Shown here piece after piece: positions 6,021-18,621 of a DNA stretch of 64,000 nucleotides. Position 1 is the first letter of the stretch, and each line of letters starts with the position of its first letter. The notes beneath the pieces were generated by a model. The model had not been told where the DNA came from. It saw nothing but the letters and a program-made list of their open reading frames with translations, and did no database searches. A program made the position numbers and the translations under genes. The DNA comes from Mucilaginibacter frigoritolerans (lineage in GTDB: Bacteria > Bacteroidota > Bacteroidia > Sphingobacteriales > Sphingobacteriaceae), in assembly GCF_007830615.1 (NCBI RefSeq), contig NZ_VLLI01000001.1, positions 434,001-498,000 of the forward strand, in the 5' to 3' direction.

Positions 6021-7067
6021 ATGTATTCTCTGATAAAACCTTTGCTTTTTAAGTTCGATCCGGAAGTGGTTCATTATTTTGTTACGGCTAATTTGAAGCG
6101 TTTTAACCGTTTTCCGGGTGGTGGTGCATTGAGTCGAGGCATTTGGGATGTTGAACATCCTTCACTCGAAAAAGAAGTTTTTGGTTTGAAATTTAAAAAT
6201 CCTGTTGGTCTTGCTGCCGGGTTCGACAAAAATGGTGAACTGATGGGCGAAATGGCCAACCTTGGTTTCGGCTTTGTTGAAGTTGGAACGGTTACCCCCT
6301 TGCCTCAACCGGGCAACGAGAAGCCGCGTATGTTCAGGCTACCCAATGATGGCGGACTAATTAACCGCATGGGTTTTAATAATTTAGGGGTTGATGTGGT
6401 AGCTGAAAGGTTAGCCGCTTTTCGCAAAAATGCCAAAGGGAAGAACAAACAATTAATTATTGGCGGTAATATTGGTAAAAATAAGATAACTCCTAATGAG
6501 GATGCTGTAAGTGACTATATTAAATGCTTTGACCGTTTATTTGATGTGGTTGATTATTTTGTGGTGAATGTAAGTTCGCCCAACACTCCTGGGTTACGGG
6601 CCCTGCAAGAAAAAGAACCTTTAATGGCGTTGTTGAATACCTTACAGCAACGTAACTCAAAAAATGGTATCAGCAGGCCAATATTACTAAAAATAGCACC
6701 TGATTTAACCAATGAACAATTGGATGATATTGTTGAAATTGTACAGGGAACTGGTATCGCAGGTATTATTGCAACCAATACTACTATTAGCCGGGAAAAT
6801 CTGGCATCACAAGATAGCCTTAAGAATGAAATGGGTGGACTAAGTGGAAAACCTCTAACACAACGTTCTACCGAAGTGATCAAATATCTTTCCGAAAAAT
6901 CAAATGGTACTTTTCCTATTATTGGAGTAGGGGGGATTCATTCGGCAGAAGATGCTTTTGAGAAATTAAATGCAGGCGCGTCACTTGTACAACTTTATAC
7001 CGGATTTATTTATGAAGGACCTGGATTGATTAAAAGAATTAATAAGAGGATATTGTCTGGTCTGTAA
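6021..7067 (+). CDS. pyrD: Dihydroorotate dehydrogenase (quinone), class 2
   Basis: This enzyme oxidises dihydroorotate to orotate in pyrimidine synthesis, passing electrons to the quinone pool. The 348 residues show the class 2 pattern: an N-terminal helical extension for membrane/quinone contact (about 1-45), [10 protein letters not shown], the FMN-site loop NRMGFNN, the catalytic-Ser segment [11 protein letters not shown], the KIAPDL and TNTT motifs, and the C-terminal phosphate-binding [11 protein letters not shown] and [12 protein letters not shown]. The length matches the family. The ATG at 6021 directly follows TAACTTCGCGCCC, a near match to a -7 element, so the leader may be very short. 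It is not in a pyr cluster. Confidence 0.96.
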
Positions 7068-7377: not shown

Positions 7378-7407
7378 GGTGTTATTATTTTAATGTTTTT
7401 AATCTTG

Positions 7408-7478
7408 AGGTCGGGAGCGGATTCGAACCGCTGTAAAAGGTTTTGCAGACCTCTGCCTAGCCACTCGGCCACCCGACC
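7408..7478 (-). tRNA. tRNA-Cys (GCA)
   Basis: A complete 71-nt cloverleaf. Acceptor GGTCGGG pairs with CCCGACC, with discriminator T (U73, a CysRS identity base). The D stem is GCC/GGC, the anticodon stem GAGGT/ACCTT encloses loop CTGCAAA (anticodon GCA), and the T arm is AGCGG-TTCGAAT-CCGCT. CCA is not encoded. This is the canonical copy; a divergent second copy lies at 17663-17733. Confidence 0.96.
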
Positions 7479-8274: not shown

Positions 8275-10643
8275 ATATAAAACCTAATGGTTACCGCCTT
8301 ACAATATTAAGTATTCTTCTGCTCATTATGGTTTCGGGCTGTAGTTTAACGCGAAGGCTTAACGCTAACCAGGCTCTGGTGCGTAAAATAACCATTAAAG
8401 GAGTTTCTAATGAAGATTTTGCTACAGCTGCAGTTACTTATGTTGATAAGGGACAGCAGCCCAATAATGTTATTAATCTTCAGTTTTATTATATGTTCAG
8501 CAAAAACGGCAAAAGAGATATAGGCGAGCCCCCAGCTATTTTGGATAGTGGCCTTGTTGAGTTTTCACGCGTGCAAATAGAGCAATTTTTGCAAAATAAA
8601 GGTTATTTAAAAGCCAAAGTATCAGACTCCATCTACATAAAAAAGAAAAAAGCTGAGCTTATATTTACTGCAGTTGAAGGCCCTTTATTCAGAATTCGTA
8701 AAATTGATGACTCTATTTATGATAAAAACGTAAAAAATCTTTATATGGTTAATCGTCCGCGGTTTTCACATGTTCAGCCCGGAGGGCGTTTTGATACTGA
8801 TAGCCTGGCTTATGATCGGGATGAGTTTTACACCATTATGAAAAGAAATGGGTATTATGATTTTTATCGTCAATATATTAATTATACCTACGATTCTACT
8901 TTTATGAGTAGTGTGGTTGATTTAAAGATGACCATTGATAATCCTATCGGAAAATCGACTCACCCCGTTTATACCATTAATAATACACTGATAACTATCG
9001 CTAACAGCTCTGGCCGAACAGTCGGTAAGGCAGATACCATTCAGGTAGACTCTCAATTCAGATTTGTTGATTTTTCGCACAAATTTAAACCAGGCCCGGT
9101 TATTACTTATATTTTTCAGCGTAAAGGTCAGTTGTATGATGTTGATAAGCAGACACTTACAACATCAAGGCTATCGGAGCTGAATGTTTTTAGAAATGTA
9201 CCCAATCCAACCTATATCAAGTTGCCAGATAGTACCCATCGTTTGGATTCTAAAATAGATATTGTTCCTTTAAAACGGATGTCCGATCGGGTAGAGGGGG
9301 AGTTCCTTTTTAATGCTGGCCAATTTGGATACAATCTTGGTAATACTTTTACAGATCGTAACGTATTTAAAAGTGCTGCCATTTTACAAATAAAAGCTAA
9401 TTGGAGCGTGTTGTTTGATAATAGTAACAATAAGACTAATCCGGGTGGAATTGAAAACCAGGATCTGAGGTTAGGAGCCAGCCTTATTTACCCGCTCATC
9501 ATTTCGCCCTTTGATTTTGCATTGCCAGGCAAATATGGCGTTCCCCACACCACTTTTTCAAGCAACTACCAATTGTTTTATGAAAAGGGATTAGTGCAGC
9601 GCACAAGTATAACCAATTCTATTACTTATGATTTTGCAGAAACTGCCCGTAAACTGCATACGATAACACCTATAGATATTGAATTTTCACGTGGAGTTAT
9701 AGACCCGGTTGCTGAGCAGGAATTATTATCAAAAAACTTATATGCTTACAGTTATCTTATAGGAAGAACCATTTTTACATCAGGAAGTCAATATACTTTT
9801 CAATATAATGCCATTGAACTTAATTCATATTCAAATTTTGTATACTTCCGTGGAAATGTAGATGTAGGTGGTAATACTTTAGCCTTATTAAGCAAAATTT
9901 TTAATACGCCACGGGATACTTCTGGATCACGGACGCTTGGAGGCAGGGCTTTTGCCCAGTATGCAAAAACGGAAATCGATTTACGGATATATCATAGTTT
10001 TGGAGGTGAAAGACAATTGATATTCAGGTTAAATCCGGGTATTGGTGTCCCTTATGGTAACAGTAATACCAGTAACTGGATATTTGAAAAGGAATTTTAT
10101 ACTGGCGGAGCTAATGATATGCGTGGATGGTTGCCGCGTACTCTTGGGCCCGGGCAATTTAATAGAGCTACATTTTATGGAACCGGATCGGGGGCTGATT
10201 CAATCAGGACAAGATTGAAATACCTTGACCAGTTTGGGGAAATTAAAATAGTATCAAACCTCGAATACAGGTATAAATTAGCAGATGATTTTTTTGGATC
10301 AAAGTTAAAAGGAGCAGTCTTTGTTGATGCCGGGAATGTGTGGCGTTTAAATAAACAACCCAATGACCCTAATGTTGAATTCAGGGTCGATAATATTTGG
10401 CAATCATCAGCAATGGATATAGGCACCGGATTACGGTTTGACCTTGGTTTTTTTGTATTTAGACTGGATGCTGCACTTAAGTTCAAAGATCCGCAATTTA
10501 ATGGCAGTGCTCAGTGGGTGCTTATTGATCACTTTAATGAGCTATTCCATTCCGGATCATTTAAGGCAAACTATGCGGCCACCAATAGTGGAGATACCTA
10601 TAACTTTTTACAATTGAATTTTGGTATAGGAATGCCATTTTAA
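8265..10643 (+). CDS. BamA/TamA-family outer-membrane barrel with lipoprotein signal
   Basis: This 792-residue Omp85-type protein has an N-terminal hydrophobic signal ending in a lipobox (MVSGC, Cys at about residue 26). A POTRA-like region follows (for example VQIEQFLQNKGYLKAKVSD, then FRIRKIDD and YTIMKRNGYYDF). A C-terminal 16-strand-type barrel contains the Omp85 phrases GGANDMRGW and AVFVDAGNVW and ends GIGMPF. Omp85 proteins insert or export proteins and lipids at the outer membrane; a TamA-like partner role with the TamB-like protein in this window is an inference. The frame has no upstream ATG. A TTG at 8265 is needed to keep the signal peptide, because the first ATG lies inside the lipobox. 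Confidence 0.9.
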   Translation: MKAYIKPNGYRLTILSILLLIMVSGCSLTRRLNANQALVRKITIKGVSNEDFATAAVTYVDKGQQPNNVINLQFYYMFSKNGKRDIGEPPAILDSGLVEFSRVQIEQFLQNKGYLKAKVSDSIYIKKKKAELIFTAVEGPLFRIRKIDDSIYDKNVKNLYMVNRPRFSHVQPGGRFDTDSLAYDRDEFYTIMKRNGYYDFYRQYINYTYDSTFMSSVVDLKMTIDNPIGKSTHPVYTINNTLITIANSSGRTVGKADTIQVDSQFRFVDFSHKFKPGPVITYIFQRKGQLYDVDKQTLTTSRLSELNVFRNVPNPTYIKLPDSTHRLDSKIDIVPLKRMSDRVEGEFLFNAGQFGYNLGNTFTDRNVFKSAAILQIKANWSVLFDNSNNKTNPGGIENQDLRLGASLIYPLIISPFDFALPGKYGVPHTTFSSNYQLFYEKGLVQRTSITNSITYDFAETARKLHTITPIDIEFSRGVIDPVAEQELLSKNLYAYSYLIGRTIFTSGSQYTFQYNAIELNSYSNFVYFRGNVDVGGNTLALLSKIFNTPRDTSGSRTLGGRAFAQYAKTEIDLRIYHSFGGERQLIFRLNPGIGVPYGNSNTSNWIFEKEFYTGGANDMRGWLPRTLGPGQFNRATFYGTGSGADSIRTRLKYLDQFGEIKIVSNLEYRYKLADDFFGSKLKGAVFVDAGNVWRLNKQPNDPNVEFRVDNIWQSSAMDIGTGLRFDLGFFVFRLDAALKFKDPQFNGSAQWVLIDHFNELFHSGSFKANYAATNSGDTYNFLQLNFGIGMPF

Positions 10644-13065: not shown

Positions 13066-13326
13066 AGTGAAGGATGCTTTTATCTTCTGGTAAAAATAAT
13101 TATTTTATCATGACGCCCTGATGATGTGAAACGTTTTATTGAATGAATGGTTTAGCTTATTGATTTATTTGTAGTAGTTTAATATAAGGTGTTTATGAAA
13201 TAAATATAGGCTTGTTTAAACTAATGTTATTTTATTTATCTAAAGTATACAAACAATTTGTAGAATTGGGCGTAAACATAATTAACCAAATAGAAGCCAG
13301 ATTCTGCCGGATTGAAGTATTATTTT

Positions 13327-16300
13327 ATGAATGAATTAAGCATTGTTCTTGGCGCTGATCGTCCGGACCTGATAAAAGAAGAAACCCTGCCCTTATTGTT
13401 TTCCAGATCGGCAGAGCAATTTACATATAAAACCGCTCTTATTTTCCACGACCAAAGTTTAACTTATACAGAGTTAGATAAATGGAGTGATGCCATTGCT
13501 TTGTATTTAAACCAAAAGGGCATAGGTCGTAATGCCAGTGTTGGTGTTTGGTGGCAACGTGGGTTAGAATTACATGCCATCATTTTAGGTATCGCCAAGT
13601 CTGGTGCAGCTTATGTGCCAGTGGATAGAGAAATACCCGCAGAACGTGTAGAAGTTATTTTGCAGGAAGTAGGTGCAGCCGGTTGCTTTAGTATGCAGCA
13701 ATTAAATGTGAATTGCCCAATGCTTACAGCGCCTCTGGCTCCCGCGCCGGGAGATGATTTTAAGGCAGAGATCCAACGTTTAAAAGTTGGCCCATCGCCT
13801 GATGATTGTGCCTATGTTTTATATACATCGGGAAGTACAGGGAAGCCCAAGGGTATTCCGATAAGTCATAAACAGATTTGCCATTTGGTACGATCTGAAC
13901 AAACAATTTTGCAGATTAAAGAGACCGACAAAGTTTACCAGGGCTTCTCCGTTTCGTTTGATATGTGGTGTGAAGAAACCTGGATCAGCTATTTTGTGGG
14001 GGCTACTTTGTGGGTGGCTGATAATACTACCTCCAAAGCTATTGATGAGTTATCAGACACTTTAAAAAAAGAAAACATAACCATTTTACACGCCGTGCCG
14101 AGTTTGTTGGCAGTAATGGAAGATAGTTTGCCATCACTACGCCTGGTAAATGCCGGGGGCGAGGCATGTACACCGCAAGTGCTTGCTAAATGGGCCAAAG
14201 AAGGGATTCTGTTTTTTAATAGCTATGGCCCTACCGAAACTACGGTTACAGCAACTATGGCTCCATTAAAATCAGGCGATCCTATTATAATCGGGCAACC
14301 CTTGCCTAATTATAACCTGGCCGTTGTGGATGAGTCGATGAATCTGGTGCCTGTAGGTGAAGCAGGGGAGTTGGTAATAACTGGTCCCGGAGTATCATCT
14401 GGATATGTGAAGTTACCACAACTTACCAAAGAGAAATTTATAACAAAGCCTGTCTCACTTAACCAGTTGCCGGGTAATACCGTTTATCGTACAGGTGATA
14501 TTGCTGTTGTTAATAAAGATGGGAGCGTTGATATGCATGGTCGCCTTGATGACCAGATTAAACTTCGCGGCTACCGTATTGAGCTAGGGGAAATTGAATC
14601 AAAATTAAATGCTATTGCAGGGGTGCGTTCTGCAGCAGTAGCTGTAAAAAAAGATACCACAGGACAAGAGCATCTGGTTGGTTATGTAGTTACTGAAGGG
14701 CTTGCTTGTATTGAGGAGAATGTTTTCAGGGCTGAACTTTCAAAAGGATTACCTTCTTACATGATTCCAAGTACTATAATGGTATTGCCTGAGATGCCGC
14801 GTATGCCAAGTGGTAAAATCAACCGTAAAGCACTCCCAATCCCGGATTCCTTAATGTTTGACGTGAATTCGGCTGCTGAAACATTAGACCTTAATGCTCC
14901 AATGGCCGACAGGATAATGGCCGTTTTGCACAAAACATTTCCTAACAGGGCAATTGACCCTTCAATGGACTTTTTTACTGACCTAGGTGGACACTCATTA
15001 TTAGCTGCAGGGTTTGTTTCACAATTAAGGCGTGATGCTGGTTTACCCAATGCCTCATTGAAAGACGTATACATTAATCGCCCGTTGAGTAACTTAATTG
15101 AGGTTTGGAGTACCCGGGCAGAAGCTAAAGCAAAGCCCAAGCGTATTTTTAACAAAATCCCAGTTTTAAGGCATATAGCTTGCTGGGCCGCTCAAACTGT
15201 TGCATTGCTTGTTATATACGGGTTGTTTGCCTTCCAGATCTTTATTCCGTACCTGGGGTATTATTATGTTGATCAGGAAACCAGCAATGTGCTTTACTCC
15301 ATCATTACCTCATTGGCTCTGTTTTCATTAATACCGCCCATATTTACCATTTTGTGCATTAGTACCAAATGGCTGGTTATAGGAAAAATGAAAGAAGGGG
15401 ATTATCCTTTATGGGGTACTTACTATTTCAGGTGGTGGTTTGTTAAAACTATGCAACGCCTGTTGCCTGCACAGTTTTTAAATGGAACACCGCTTTACCC
15501 GGCTTATTTACGTTTACTGGGGATGAAAATTGCATCCGACGCACAAATCAGCGATTTTACTTTTGGTGCCGAAGACTTGATAACCATAGGCGGCGATGTA
15601 AGTATCAGCTCTAAAACAAGCTTAAACAATGCTTTTGTTGAAGATGGCATGCTAAAGCTTAGAACGATTACATTGGGTGATCACGCTTATATTGGTAGTA
15701 GCTCTATTATTGCCGGCGATGCTAATATGGCGGAGTGGAGTGAGTTACAGGATTTGAGTTTTTTACAAGCTGGTAAAACCATTGGTGCAGGAGAAGTATG
15801 GCAGGGAAGCCCGGCACAATTAAAAGAAAAGAAGAATATTGAAGATTTACCGCAGCCGCTCACGGTATCAACTTATACCCGGCGAAAATATAAAATGATC
15901 TTTATTTTATCGATCATGGTTTTCCCTTTCATTATTCTGCTACCCTTATTGCCTACTATTATCACCATAAATAAACTGGATAATGCTGCTGGCGATTATG
16001 ACTTTACTTATATGATAAGCGCACCTTTACTGGCTTTAGTATATATTATACTTTTTGCAACAGAGACAGTGATTTTAACACGTTTACTTCAACTAAATAT
16101 AAAGCCAGGCAAATACCCCATTTATAGTATGTTTTATGTACGTAAATGGTTTGCTGATCAGTTAATGTCATTAAGTCTAATTGTATTGCATCCTATTTAC
16201 GCTACAGTATATGTGGCAAGTTTCTTTAGGGCCTTGGGGGCCAAAATTGGGAAGGATACTGAAATTTCAACAGCAAGTAGCGTTACGCATCCGTTATTGC

Positions 16301-17280
16301 AAATTGGGGATGGTGCTTTTGTAGCCGATGCAGTTACCCTCGGTGAGGCAGATGTTCGTGCCCAGCAACTGATCCTTGATAATACTACTATCGAAAACAA
16401 TAGCTTTGTGGGTAACAGCGCCCTTATACCACAAGGATATCATTTAAATAGCAATATGCTTATCGGTGTGTTGTCAACCCCGCCAGATCAGGCGCAGATG
16501 GCGGCTAACAGCGCTCGTGATTGGTTTGGCTCACCGGCTATTCCCTTACCCCGCAGGCAGGAAAGTAACCCATTCCCTCCTGAGTTAACTATTCATCCTA
16601 ATTTTAGCAGGAAGCTGGCCCGAAGCATTGTAGAGTTTATCAGGATCATCCTTCCGGAAAGTGCTATCATTTGCTGTTCCATCCTTTTCATTGCTTATGG
16701 GCACGATCTGGTGGTGGATGAGCCGCTGTGGAAGATCATCCTTTACTTCCCGTTCTATTACCTGTTTTATATGGGGATACCGGCATTTTTACTTACTGTA
16801 TTTTTAAAATGGGCCTTTATTGGTAAATACAAGCCCAAGCAGCGCCCCATGTGGAGCTGGAATGTTTGGCGGAGTGAAGCCATTACATCTACCTACGAAG
16901 CATTATCCATCCCTTTTTTACTGGAATACCTACAAGGAACCCCGTGGTTACCCATTTTTATGCGACTGCTGGGGGTGAAAATAGGGAAAAGAGTGTTTCT
17001 GAATACTACCGATATCACCGAATTTGACATGGTAACTATTTGTGACGATGCTGCTCTTAATGCCGACTGCGGCCCGCAAACGCACCTGTTTGAAGACCGT
17101 GTAATGAAAGTTGGCTCAGTAAAAATAGGAGCGAGGGCCAGTATTGGAGCGGGTACCATTATTTTGTATGATAGCGAGCTTGGCGACGATACCAATATTG
17201 AAGCATTATCATTGGTAATGAAAGGTGAACGCCTTTCGCCCGGAACAGATTGGACAGGAAGCCCGGTTAAACCCGCCTGA
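13327..17280 (+). CDS. Pls/PosA-type membrane non-ribosomal peptide synthetase (A-T plus three-unit terminal domain)
   Basis: A 1318-residue single-module synthetase. The adenylation domain (about 20-515) has core motifs YTSGSTGKPKG (A3), NSYGPTETT (A5), YRTGDIA (A7), GRLDDQIKLRGYRIELGEIE (A8) and MPSGKINRK (A10). The carrier domain has DLGGHSLL with the phosphopantetheine Ser at 557. No condensation or thioesterase domain is present. Instead, from about 610, three similar units follow, each with transmembrane helices, a W-rich motif (GTYYFRWW, MFYVRKWF, WSWNVWRSE) and a left-handed-helix hexapeptide region. This is the layout of epsilon-poly-lysine synthetase-like enzymes, which make amino-acid homopolymers or attach single residues. 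Hand alignment of specificity positions gives Glu at position 239, hinting at a basic substrate (weak). ATG at 13327 is preferred to the TTG 15 bp upstream. Confidence 0.9.
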   Translation: MNELSIVLGADRPDLIKEETLPLLFSRSAEQFTYKTALIFHDQSLTYTELDKWSDAIALYLNQKGIGRNASVGVWWQRGLELHAIILGIAKSGAAYVPVDREIPAERVEVILQEVGAAGCFSMQQLNVNCPMLTAPLAPAPGDDFKAEIQRLKVGPSPDDCAYVLYTSGSTGKPKGIPISHKQICHLVRSEQTILQIKETDKVYQGFSVSFDMWCEETWISYFVGATLWVADNTTSKAIDELSDTLKKENITILHAVPSLLAVMEDSLPSLRLVNAGGEACTPQVLAKWAKEGILFFNSYGPTETTVTATMAPLKSGDPIIIGQPLPNYNLAVVDESMNLVPVGEAGELVITGPGVSSGYVKLPQLTKEKFITKPVSLNQLPGNTVYRTGDIAVVNKDGSVDMHGRLDDQIKLRGYRIELGEIESKLNAIAGVRSAAVAVKKDTTGQEHLVGYVVTEGLACIEENVFRAELSKGLPSYMIPSTIMVLPEMPRMPSGKINRKALPIPDSLMFDVNSAAETLDLNAPMADRIMAVLHKTFPNRAIDPSMDFFTDLGGHSLLAAGFVSQLRRDAGLPNASLKDVYINRPLSNLIEVWSTRAEAKAKPKRIFNKIPVLRHIACWAAQTVALLVIYGLFAFQIFIPYLGYYYVDQETSNVLYSIITSLALFSLIPPIFTILCISTKWLVIGKMKEGDYPLWGTYYFRWWFVKTMQRLLPAQFLNGTPLYPAYLRLLGMKIASDAQISDFTFGAEDLITIGGDVSISSKTSLNNAFVEDGMLKLRTITLGDHAYIGSSSIIAGDANMAEWSELQDLSFLQAGKTIGAGEVWQGSPAQLKEKKNIEDLPQPLTVSTYTRRKYKMIFILSIMVFPFIILLPLLPTIITINKLDNAAGDYDFTYMISAPLLALVYIILFATETVILTRLLQLNIKPGKYPIYSMFYVRKWFADQLMSLSLIVLHPIYATVYVASFFRALGAKIGKDTEISTASSVTHPLLQIGDGAFVADAVTLGEADVRAQQLILDNTTIENNSFVGNSALIPQGYHLNSNMLIGVLSTPPDQAQMAANSARDWFGSPAIPLPRRQESNPFPPELTIHPNFSRKLARSIVEFIRIILPESAIICCSILFIAYGHDLVVDEPLWKIILYFPFYYLFYMGIPAFLLTVFLKWAFIGKYKPKQRPMWSWNVWRSEAITSTYEALSIPFLLEYLQGTPWLPIFMRLLGVKIGKRVFLNTTDITEFDMVTICDDAALNADCGPQTHLFEDRVMKVGSVKIGARASIGAGTIILYDSELGDDTNIEALSLVMKGERLSPGTDWTGSPVKPA

Positions 17281-17459: not shown

Positions 17460-17467
17460 TATGTTTG
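17460..17467 (+). promoter_or_regulatory. -7 promoter element of the SAM riboswitch transcript
   Basis: TATGTTTG is a perfect TAnnTTTG box, 23 bp before the first base of the aptamer P1 stem. No TTG stands at the -33 position, so strength is uncertain. Confidence 0.5.
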
Positions 17468-17490
17468 TATCAACAAATCGTTCTTTATTT

Positions 17491-17612
17491 CACTTATCCA
17501 GAAAGACTGAGGGAAAAGGCCCTGTGAAGTCTTAGCAACCTGTCCTGAGTAGAATAAAACTACTCTCGTAAAAGGTGCTAACTCCTGCTCTGCATTGCAG
17601 AGAAAGATAGGT
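17491..17612 (+). ncRNA. SAM-I (S-box) riboswitch aptamer
   Basis: All conserved parts are present in order. P1 ACTTATC (17492-17498) pairs with GATAGGT (17606-17612). P2 AAGACT/AGTCTT carries the kink-turn GAGGGA and GGCCCTGTGA. The J2/3 core is AGCAACC. P3 is GAGTAG/CTACTC. The conserved AAGGTGCTAACTCC follows, then P4 CTCTGC-ATT-GCAGAG and AGAAAGATAGG. SAM-I normally turns off methionine or cysteine biosynthesis genes. Here the 50 bp after P1 contain a T6 run (17653-17658) and ATAAGTG (17637-17643), which can pair with CACTTAT of the P1 5' strand as an alternative to P1. No protein gene follows on this strand; the next feature is a tRNA-Cys. Confidence 0.93.
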
Positions 17613-17662
17613 TACCCAACCCTCCGGTCCCGATGAATAAGTGATTAAATAGTTTTTTATAA

Positions 17663-17733
17663 AGTCGCGTGACCGAGAGGATAGGTGGGAGTCTGCAAAA
17701 CCCTTTACGGCAGTTCGAATCTGCCCGCGGCGT
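17663..17733 (+). tRNA. Divergent second tRNA-Cys (GCA), possibly riboswitch-controlled
   Basis: A 71-nt sequence aligns without gaps to the tRNA-Cys at 7408-7478. It keeps loop CTGCAAA (anticodon GCA), the T loop TTCGAAT, the same variable loop length and discriminator T73. Paired positions differ in a compensating way: D stem ACC/GGT, T stem GGCAG/CTGCC, acceptor core GCG/CGC and position 28-42 G-C. Two mismatches remain (A1 against G72, A29 against C41). Covariation argues for a selected tRNA rather than random decay; the mismatches argue for a specialised or weakening copy. It starts 50 nt after the SAM-I aptamer on the same strand. Confidence 0.75.
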
Positions 17734-17775
17734 CAAATATTTCATCTGATCTCCATAAAACAATAACTCTGTTGG

Positions 17776-18621
17776 TTATAAATATGATAGGCCCCTTAAT
17801 TGGGGCTGTTCATAATAAAAAGGTTCAAATCCGCTCTCTTCCAGTTCACAGCTTACTATCATTGAGGTAAAAATAACATTGCCAAAAATATTGGCTATTG
17901 CAGTATCCGCAGCATCCCTGCCTGATGCTATTTTAATCAGCCCGTTAAGCGGCACTAACCTGGTGGCATCAAATAAAACCCAATCCGTCCCGATATAGGC
18001 TTCAAAACAGGCGTGGAAATCAGCTGGTTTTAAATGATAGGCGTATCCGGTAAAATACCTTGCCGGTATGGTTAAGGCCCGGCATAAAGCAATGCCCAAA
18101 TGGGCAAAATCACGGCATACACCAGCCTGTTCGGTAACGGTATCAAACGCCGAAGTTTGCGAATTGGTTGATCCGCTTAAGTATTGTACATTTTTATGGA
18201 TCCAGTCGGTTAAGGTAATAACCTTTTCAAAAGGGTTTTCAATATGCCCAAACAGATTGTTCGCCAGCCGGTATAATTTATCAGATTGGCAATACCGGCT
18301 AGGATATAAATAAGGCAAAACGGAACTTTCCATTTTGGCTATTGGGATCTCTTCAATATCAGTAAAATCCTTTATCTCGCAAAAATTGTCAATAACTGCC
18401 TTATACGTTACTTTGATGGTACCCGCCTCCTCAATTTCAAAACGCATTAAGCGGTTTTCATTTTGGGTTGATATTAATTCCTCAACCTTTATATACGGTT
18501 CAATGTCAAATATTTCACTGATAACCGTTTGATGTGGGGTTCTTAACGCATGAATATTAAGTATGATAGTGCCCGGCGAACGGGCAATATATTCCATTTC
18601 AGTAAATACATTAAATTTCAT
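17776..18621 (-). CDS. Transglutaminase-like cysteine protease-fold protein
   Basis: A 281-residue cytoplasmic protein with an N-terminal beta domain (1-110), then a transglutaminase core holding the catalytic triad Cys169 (AGVCRDFAHL), His203 (DFHACFEAY) and Asp218 (VLFDATRL). Members with this N-terminal domain are often encoded beside the Anbu proteasome-like peptidase, and that gene lies immediately upstream (109 bp gap, same strand). A joint role in peptide or cross-link turnover is inferred from this linkage. The other usual partners (alpha-E protein, circularly permuted ATP-grasp protein) are not in the window. The 3' end converges on the tRNA-Cys-like gene. Confidence 0.9.
   Translation of the reverse strand: MKFNVFTEMEYIARSPGTIILNIHALRTPHQTVISEIFDIEPYIKVEELISTQNENRLMRFEIEEAGTIKVTYKAVIDNFCEIKDFTDIEEIPIAKMESSVLPYLYPSRYCQSDKLYRLANNLFGHIENPFEKVITLTDWIHKNVQYLSGSTNSQTSAFDTVTEQAGVCRDFAHLGIALCRALTIPARYFTGYAYHLKPADFHACFEAYIGTDWVLFDATRLVPLNGLIKIASGRDAADTAIANIFGNVIFTSMIVSCELEESGFEPFYYEQPQLRGLSYL

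Follow-up and report, generated by a model that had tools for sequence, protein, structure and literature searches.

The window analyzed here comprises 64,000 nucleotides of the Mucilaginibacter frigoritolerans genome, and positions refer to it unless a locus number is given. On the forward strand, a Bacteroidota-type -7 box of the form TAnnTTTG (TATGTTTG, 17460-17467) was read directly in the letters, followed by a SAM-I riboswitch aptamer (17491-17613), a linker of about 50 nt (17614-17662), and a tRNA-Cys gene (17663-17734). Rfam cmscan matched the aptamer to RF00162 at 77.0 bits (gathering threshold, 44.4; E value, 2.4e-16) over the whole model (1-108), and the local model R3, whose training set included this aptamer, gave 103.9 bits. 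The earlier note had reported both the box and a complete aptamer, and both were found as described; the aptamer presumably binds SAM. The tRNA was called by ARAGORN (17663-17734, anticodon gca), by RF00005 in cmscan (17663-17733, 40.4 bits), and by the model R1 (96.4 bits), whose training set contained the same tRNA sequence. It is of type A, with GCA, U73, and an A1xG72 mismatch that was flagged as a non-standard pair in the cmscan alignment. A frame with AMP-binding and hexapeptide domain matches lies upstream (13312-17280), and the next gene after the tRNA is a convergent transglutaminase-like gene on the reverse strand (17776-18621; ORF list and domain match), in agreement with the earlier statement that the tRNA-Cys is the only downstream gene. 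The usual sulfur amino-acid protein target is thus absent behind this SAM-I element. An inverted repeat, GGCCCC/GGGGCT, read directly in the convergent intergenic stretch (17791-17806), is a possible shared transcript end, and a simple terminator scan made no call there. RF00230 (T-box) was absent from the four gathering-threshold Rfam matches of the window. A canonical tRNA-Cys with a G1-C72 pair was called by ARAGORN and cmscan on the reverse strand (7407-7478), with no SAM-I near it within the window, and is taken as the normal tRNA-Cys gene of this genome; the earlier note mentions neither this gene nor the A1xG72 mismatch. We read 17460-17734 as a probable short transcription unit of promoter, aptamer, linker, and tRNA, a judgment made jointly with the switch model presented below.

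When 60 genomes were searched at the DNA level, further members of the genus proved to carry the unit. Among 13 aligned loci, ten contained SAM-I, and three (L015, L016, L022) had the promoter and the tRNA without it; R3 found no SAM-I in the longer versions of these three loci either (L104, L038, L123), indicating that retention of the aptamer is not universal. A single pattern scan across named genomes yielded 36 loci, all with SAM-I and tRNA-Cys, the pattern itself requiring pieces of both; R3, R1, and the ARAGORN tRNA-Cys call each matched all 36, with a weak (46-54 bits) and short SAM-I model match in five. These records comprised 31 Mucilaginibacter, four unclassified MAGs ('Bacteroidetes bacterium'), and one Hufsiella arboris (L198), and the tRNA was of type B in L192 and of type A in the others. 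SAM-I also directly adjoins type B tRNAs (L163, L139), and direct adjacency extends beyond the genus (L181, L198). The family survey detected type A tRNA-Cys in further genera, including g25, which has SAM-I directly in front (L181); this tRNA was identical to that of Hufsiella L198 over the letters compared. The SAM-I/type B unit at L139 (3377-6481, reverse strand), whose genome (G078) also carries a type A unit, was followed by genes for a small protein, a redoxin-like protein, and a MetN-like ABC ATPase (names assigned by eye). As a simpler reading, the earlier note had proposed that the aptamer was stranded by loss of an original met/cys gene, leaving the tRNA as a chance neighbor. Although the lack of a downstream protein gene fits this idea, the adjacency is kept in relatives across 36 named records while the flanking genes vary among the unit loci examined, and no met/cys gene was found behind SAM-I at this site in the loci read. 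SAM-I/tRNA-Cys arrangements that involve type B tRNAs or occur in Hufsiella, together with the conservation of the -7 box and of the element upstream of it, also argue against stranding, which we consider extremely improbable.

To describe the wider family, 61 genomes of the genus, including that of M. frigoritolerans, were surveyed; 95 places with non-canonical tRNA-Cys were picked by score among the matches listed, which undercount the weaker ones, and SAM-I was sought in their flanks with R3. The tRNA lay co-directionally behind SAM-I in 46 of the 95 places, in 38 genomes (45 without L101). SAM-I was directly upstream in 20 places including L101, and in 19 by script, in which a spurious antisense ORF of 114 aa had caused L101 to be left out. 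At 26 further places, SAM-I was followed by one to three co-directional genes and then the tRNA-Cys. The intervening genes belonged to F5 (peroxiredoxin-like AhpC/TSA), F6 (AhpC/TSA redoxin), and F1 (class-V aminotransferase, cysteine-desulfurase-like by eye), all by Pfam, and also included SusC/SusD-like pairs (by eye). In the stretches read for the remaining 49 places, SAM-I was not found co-directional with the tRNA; at one of them, L039, a SAM-I 8.5 kb upstream is separated from the tRNA by genes on the opposite strand. As a control, canonical tRNA-Cys genes had SAM-I at 0 of 20 loci, up to 7 kb upstream (about 3.4 kb for L257). The co-directional association of SAM-I and tRNA-Cys is well supported, and control of the tRNA-Cys by SAM-I, taken alone, is very likely. 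The main reading of the earlier note, a different use of SAM-I that would tie Cys-tRNA supply to SAM level, is supported to this extent.

Several single loci differed in arrangement. Two type A tRNA-Cys genes stand in tandem behind SAM-I and a peroxiredoxin gene at L033 (4521-4713, reverse strand), and the type B tRNA-Cys at L167 (7001-7073), behind SAM-I and a redoxin gene, has a bulged C in place of A and the loop ACGCAAA. At L146, L148, and L153, a tRNA-Cys (near 7001 or 2510) sits without SAM-I inside operons with SusC/SusD, M14-peptidase-like, ATP-grasp-like, and flavin monooxygenase-like genes (by eye), suggesting that these tRNAs are under other control.

The tRNA could also serve to trim SAM-I transcripts, as a processing or 3'-end element, rather than being their payload. 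In the SAM-I operons, the tRNA starts 7-68 nt past the upstream stop codon, or 139 nt past it in the case of the second member of one tandem, as would suit a trimming element. However, the window locus offers no message for trimming, all 95 listed places keep GCA and U73, and the tRNA behind SAM-I was a tRNA-Cys in the cases found, ARAGORN detecting no other isotype in 23 short and 20 longer loci from searches that targeted tRNA-Cys. We judge a trimming role to be quite improbable.

The acceptor stems of these tRNAs were unusual. The 95 listed places comprised 35 with A1xG72, 12 with A1xA72, one with A1-U72, 35 with a bulge, and 12 with G1-C72; a mismatch was therefore present in 47 of the 48 places starting with A. 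The bulged base, in the acceptor 3' strand, was A in 34 places and C in one (L167), and the register of the bulge was supported by C3-G/U3-A changes (five and three of eight). All 19 distinct type A sequences had a non-standard 1-72 pair. When distinct non-G1 sequences were collected over more loci with a pattern that itself requires GCA and U73, 61 of 65 were mismatched at 1-72, the rest being three A-U and one U-G; C33 replaced U33 in three of the 61. In a class-level survey of 247 genomes, the 15 distinct out-of-family sequences, read by pattern from the 25 loci of best-scoring places (L228-L252), all had G1-C72. The type A genes do not show the loss of stem constraint expected of pseudogenes, with 91.6% of cells paired and two-sided changes in 9 of 20 pairs among the 19 distinct sequences. 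According to excerpts of PMC9976931, cysteine identity rests mainly on U73 and GCA, and a mismatched 1-72 pair is a formyltransferase recognition element of initiator tRNA. The tRNA would presumably be charged with cysteine, and it is probably a sulfur-limitation isoform. The bacterial initiator tRNA, whose mismatch is C1xA72, likewise has an unpaired 1-72 position in an otherwise normal cloverleaf, whereas the tRNAs described here have a Cys anticodon, U73, and A1xG/A72. A second CysRS was looked for, and the genome gave a single CysRS match over the cut-off.

The promoter region was also conserved. The -7 box was present in all 37 units scored, and the element CTATAGGAATTATA lay 25-26 nt before it in 36 (33 at 25 nt and three at 26 nt). 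The window was the sole exception: its positional copy (CTATAGAATTAATA, just upstream of the -7 box) is degenerate, and its best-scoring site lies elsewhere than expected. A score of at least 12/14 was reached by 37/37 direct units and 28/37 other SAM-I loci, as against 10% of 3000 AT-rich control windows, the 14-base consensus having been derived from the same loci on which it was scored. Across the whole genome, CTATAGRAATTRTA had 22 matches with one mismatch allowed versus 29 for the reversed control, a criterion too loose to be informative, and a single exact match, before the SAM-I of L025. The element may act as an operator, and we take it to resemble the box of CymR/Rrf2. The CymR/Rrf2-type cysteine regulon is a known system with a comparable box; the TAGGAATT-like element at these promoters is the shared feature, and the regulator here is putative. 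The tRNA would then belong to a wider regulon of thiol/sulfur-type genes governed by SAM-I and an operator, which we hold to be probable as part of the full OFF-switch model. An Rrf2-like gene (by eye) adjoins one SAM-I operon (L036, 4418-4861).

We then examined how the linker could connect the aptamer to the tRNA. The earlier note described it as a 50-nt segment with a T6 run and a stretch complementary to the P1 5' strand. Both features were read directly, the run at 17653-17658 and the stretch as ATAAGTGA (17637-17644, complementary to TCACTTAT at 17490-17497), and the description stands, but it was incomplete, since the linker in addition forms an imperfect antisense to the 5' half of the tRNA. 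Its segments ACCCAACCCTCCGGTC (17614-17629) and ATAAGTGATT (17637-17646) have two alternative partners, the aptamer 5' strands (17490-17513; TCACTTAT of P1 and GACTGAGGG of P2) and the tRNA 5' half, and both competing pairings were obtained in silico. In the leader-only MFE structure of the window, TCACTTAT pairs with ATAAGTGA and GACTGAGGG with CCCTCCGGTC, so that the P1 5' strand is predicted to choose between mutually exclusive partners. The linker and the tRNA 5' half together fold into an anti-tRNA hairpin (z = -3.32), and in the unconstrained full-length MFE structure, letters of the tRNA also pair with the P1 5' strand of the aptamer. Compared with shuffled sequences, the duplex between linker and aptamer 5' strand had z < 0 in 29/29 distinct units (mean -3.5; window -5.94) and that between linker and tRNA in 24/24 distinct cases (mean -1.8), counts that are not independent because the units are related. 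Taken singly, the linker/tRNA duplex reached p <= 0.05 in 11 of 24 cases (window, 0.068).

Leaders without adjacent SAM-I served as controls. The mean z of the leader/tRNA duplex was -2.41 in 31 units versus -0.14 in 75 other tRNA-Cys leaders. Among the latter, five without adjacent SAM-I had z <= -2 (L123, L127, L043, L041, L038). Folds of the leader with tRNA positions 1-37 gave mean z values of -2.13 in 30 units, -0.72 in 20 canonical leaders, and -0.93 in 74 others, of which 18 were below -2. L192 and L198 showed no antisense excess in either the duplex or the fold test. The linker tends to follow changes in the tRNA anticodon stem between clades: in class matching of linkers and tRNAs, the matched assignment of five classes ranked second of 120, and in a swap test 23 of 31 units paired more strongly with their own partner than with the others on average. 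The consensus structure that RNAalifold computed from the linker/tRNA alignment lacked the anti-tRNA hairpin. At L123 (1439-1510), a type A tRNA-Cys without SAM-I has a leader that is strongly antisense to it (z = -4.62).

These data are consistent with a model in which SAM-I acts as an OFF switch for the tRNA-Cys. With SAM bound, P1 and P2 of the aptamer would be closed and the linker free to pair with the emerging tRNA 5' half (acceptor 5' strand, D arm, and anticodon-stem 5' strand), so that no cloverleaf would form and RNase P could not mature the tRNA. When SAM is scarce, the 5' strands of P1 and P2 would capture the linker (TCACTTAT-ATAAGTGA and GACTGAGGG-CCCTCCGGTC), and the tRNA, a second tRNA-Cys for sulfur limitation with a weakened acceptor stem, would fold and be matured. 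Both the direction of the switch and misfolding as the OFF state are suggested by the predicted pairings, and unfolding of the tRNA by the antisense linker is the best-supported platform predicted for the Mucilaginibacter type A units. When P1 was forced or forbidden in the full transcript, about 20 linker-tRNA pairs formed both ways; equilibrium folding therefore showed no switch, and the model needs co-transcriptional order or kinetic switching. This result speaks for control by transcription termination, at the linker U run or through Rho, as do the position of the T run before the tRNA, the P1-competing segment, and the fact that SAM-I switches in other bacteria act mostly by termination. 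On the other side, ATAAGTGA ends 8 nt short of the U run, a simple terminator scan found none on this strand, the TAGTTTT leader also occurs in the direct loci without SAM-I (L015, L016, L022), and the linker is antisense to the tRNA; termination is thus unlikely, albeit the most serious of the rival mechanisms. We assign a probability of about 0.6 to the combined explanation of an OFF switch, misfolding by the linker, and a sulfur-limitation tRNA within a SAM-I/operator regulon, a value lowered slightly because the significance of single units is modest and 18 of the 74 other leaders fold well. A more far-reaching version, in which the riboswitch gates a dedicated sulfur-starvation Cys-tRNA through its built-in antisense linker, and this tRNA, with an open initiator-like 1-72 pair or a bulged acceptor, is charged by the ordinary CysRS and withheld at least in part from normal elongation to serve another purpose or to signal starvation, is offered only tentatively and seems rather doubtful.

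The locus shares with known SAM-I (S-box, RF00162) switches the aptamer family and a P1-competing segment and differs from them in having a tRNA gene as target and a linker antisense to that tRNA, in yielding no terminator in the scan of this strand, and in lacking a protein gene to gate. T-box riboswitches sense tRNA and link a riboswitch to tRNA and amino-acid supply, whereas here a metabolite switch would control the tRNA. To our knowledge, the riboswitch targets described so far are protein-coding genes and, in a few cases, antisense RNAs. The earlier note knew of no described case, and among the open-access PMC matches listed, with excerpts of PMC8632094, PMC3848588, PMC4986893, and PMC2965389 consulted, we likewise found no riboswitch controlling a tRNA gene; an excerpt of PMC4448311 considers that a riboswitch may lie about 2 kb upstream of a B. 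subtilis tRNA operon. The tRNA-associated theta ribozymes of phages are self-cleaving and have a proposed role in tRNA 3'-end processing (PMC10879173, abstract); they too are structured RNAs beside a tRNA with a proposed maturation role, but the abstract mentions no ligand. If the model is correct, this would be the first known riboswitch with a tRNA as its target, tRNA supply would be the direct output of a metabolite sensor, and antisense unfolding of a tRNA would be a new expression platform. The data also point to an unexplained family of tRNA-Cys with altered acceptor stems across thiol/sulfur-type operons of a bacterial family.

Four SAM-I matches in the M. frigoritolerans genome exceed the cut-off, one of them being that in the window. 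Two are classic elements, before metY-metX-like genes (L027) and before metH (L028; names by eye), and at L025 SAM-I is followed by a cysteine-desulfurase-like gene, a redoxin-like gene, and a tRNA-Cys. Two further tRNA-Cys genes without SAM-I nearby lie on the reverse strand of contig C16 (L135): a type A gene with a shortened anticodon arm (2525-2595), flanked by SusC/SusD/peptidase-like and DoxX-like genes (by eye), and one whose sequence begins GGTCAGG (9933-10004). The same genome contains two frames of 1050 and 941 aa (L253, L254) that match Lant_dehydr_N and are possible users of aminoacyl-tRNA; we presume them to be long enough for glutamyl-tRNA-using dehydratases.
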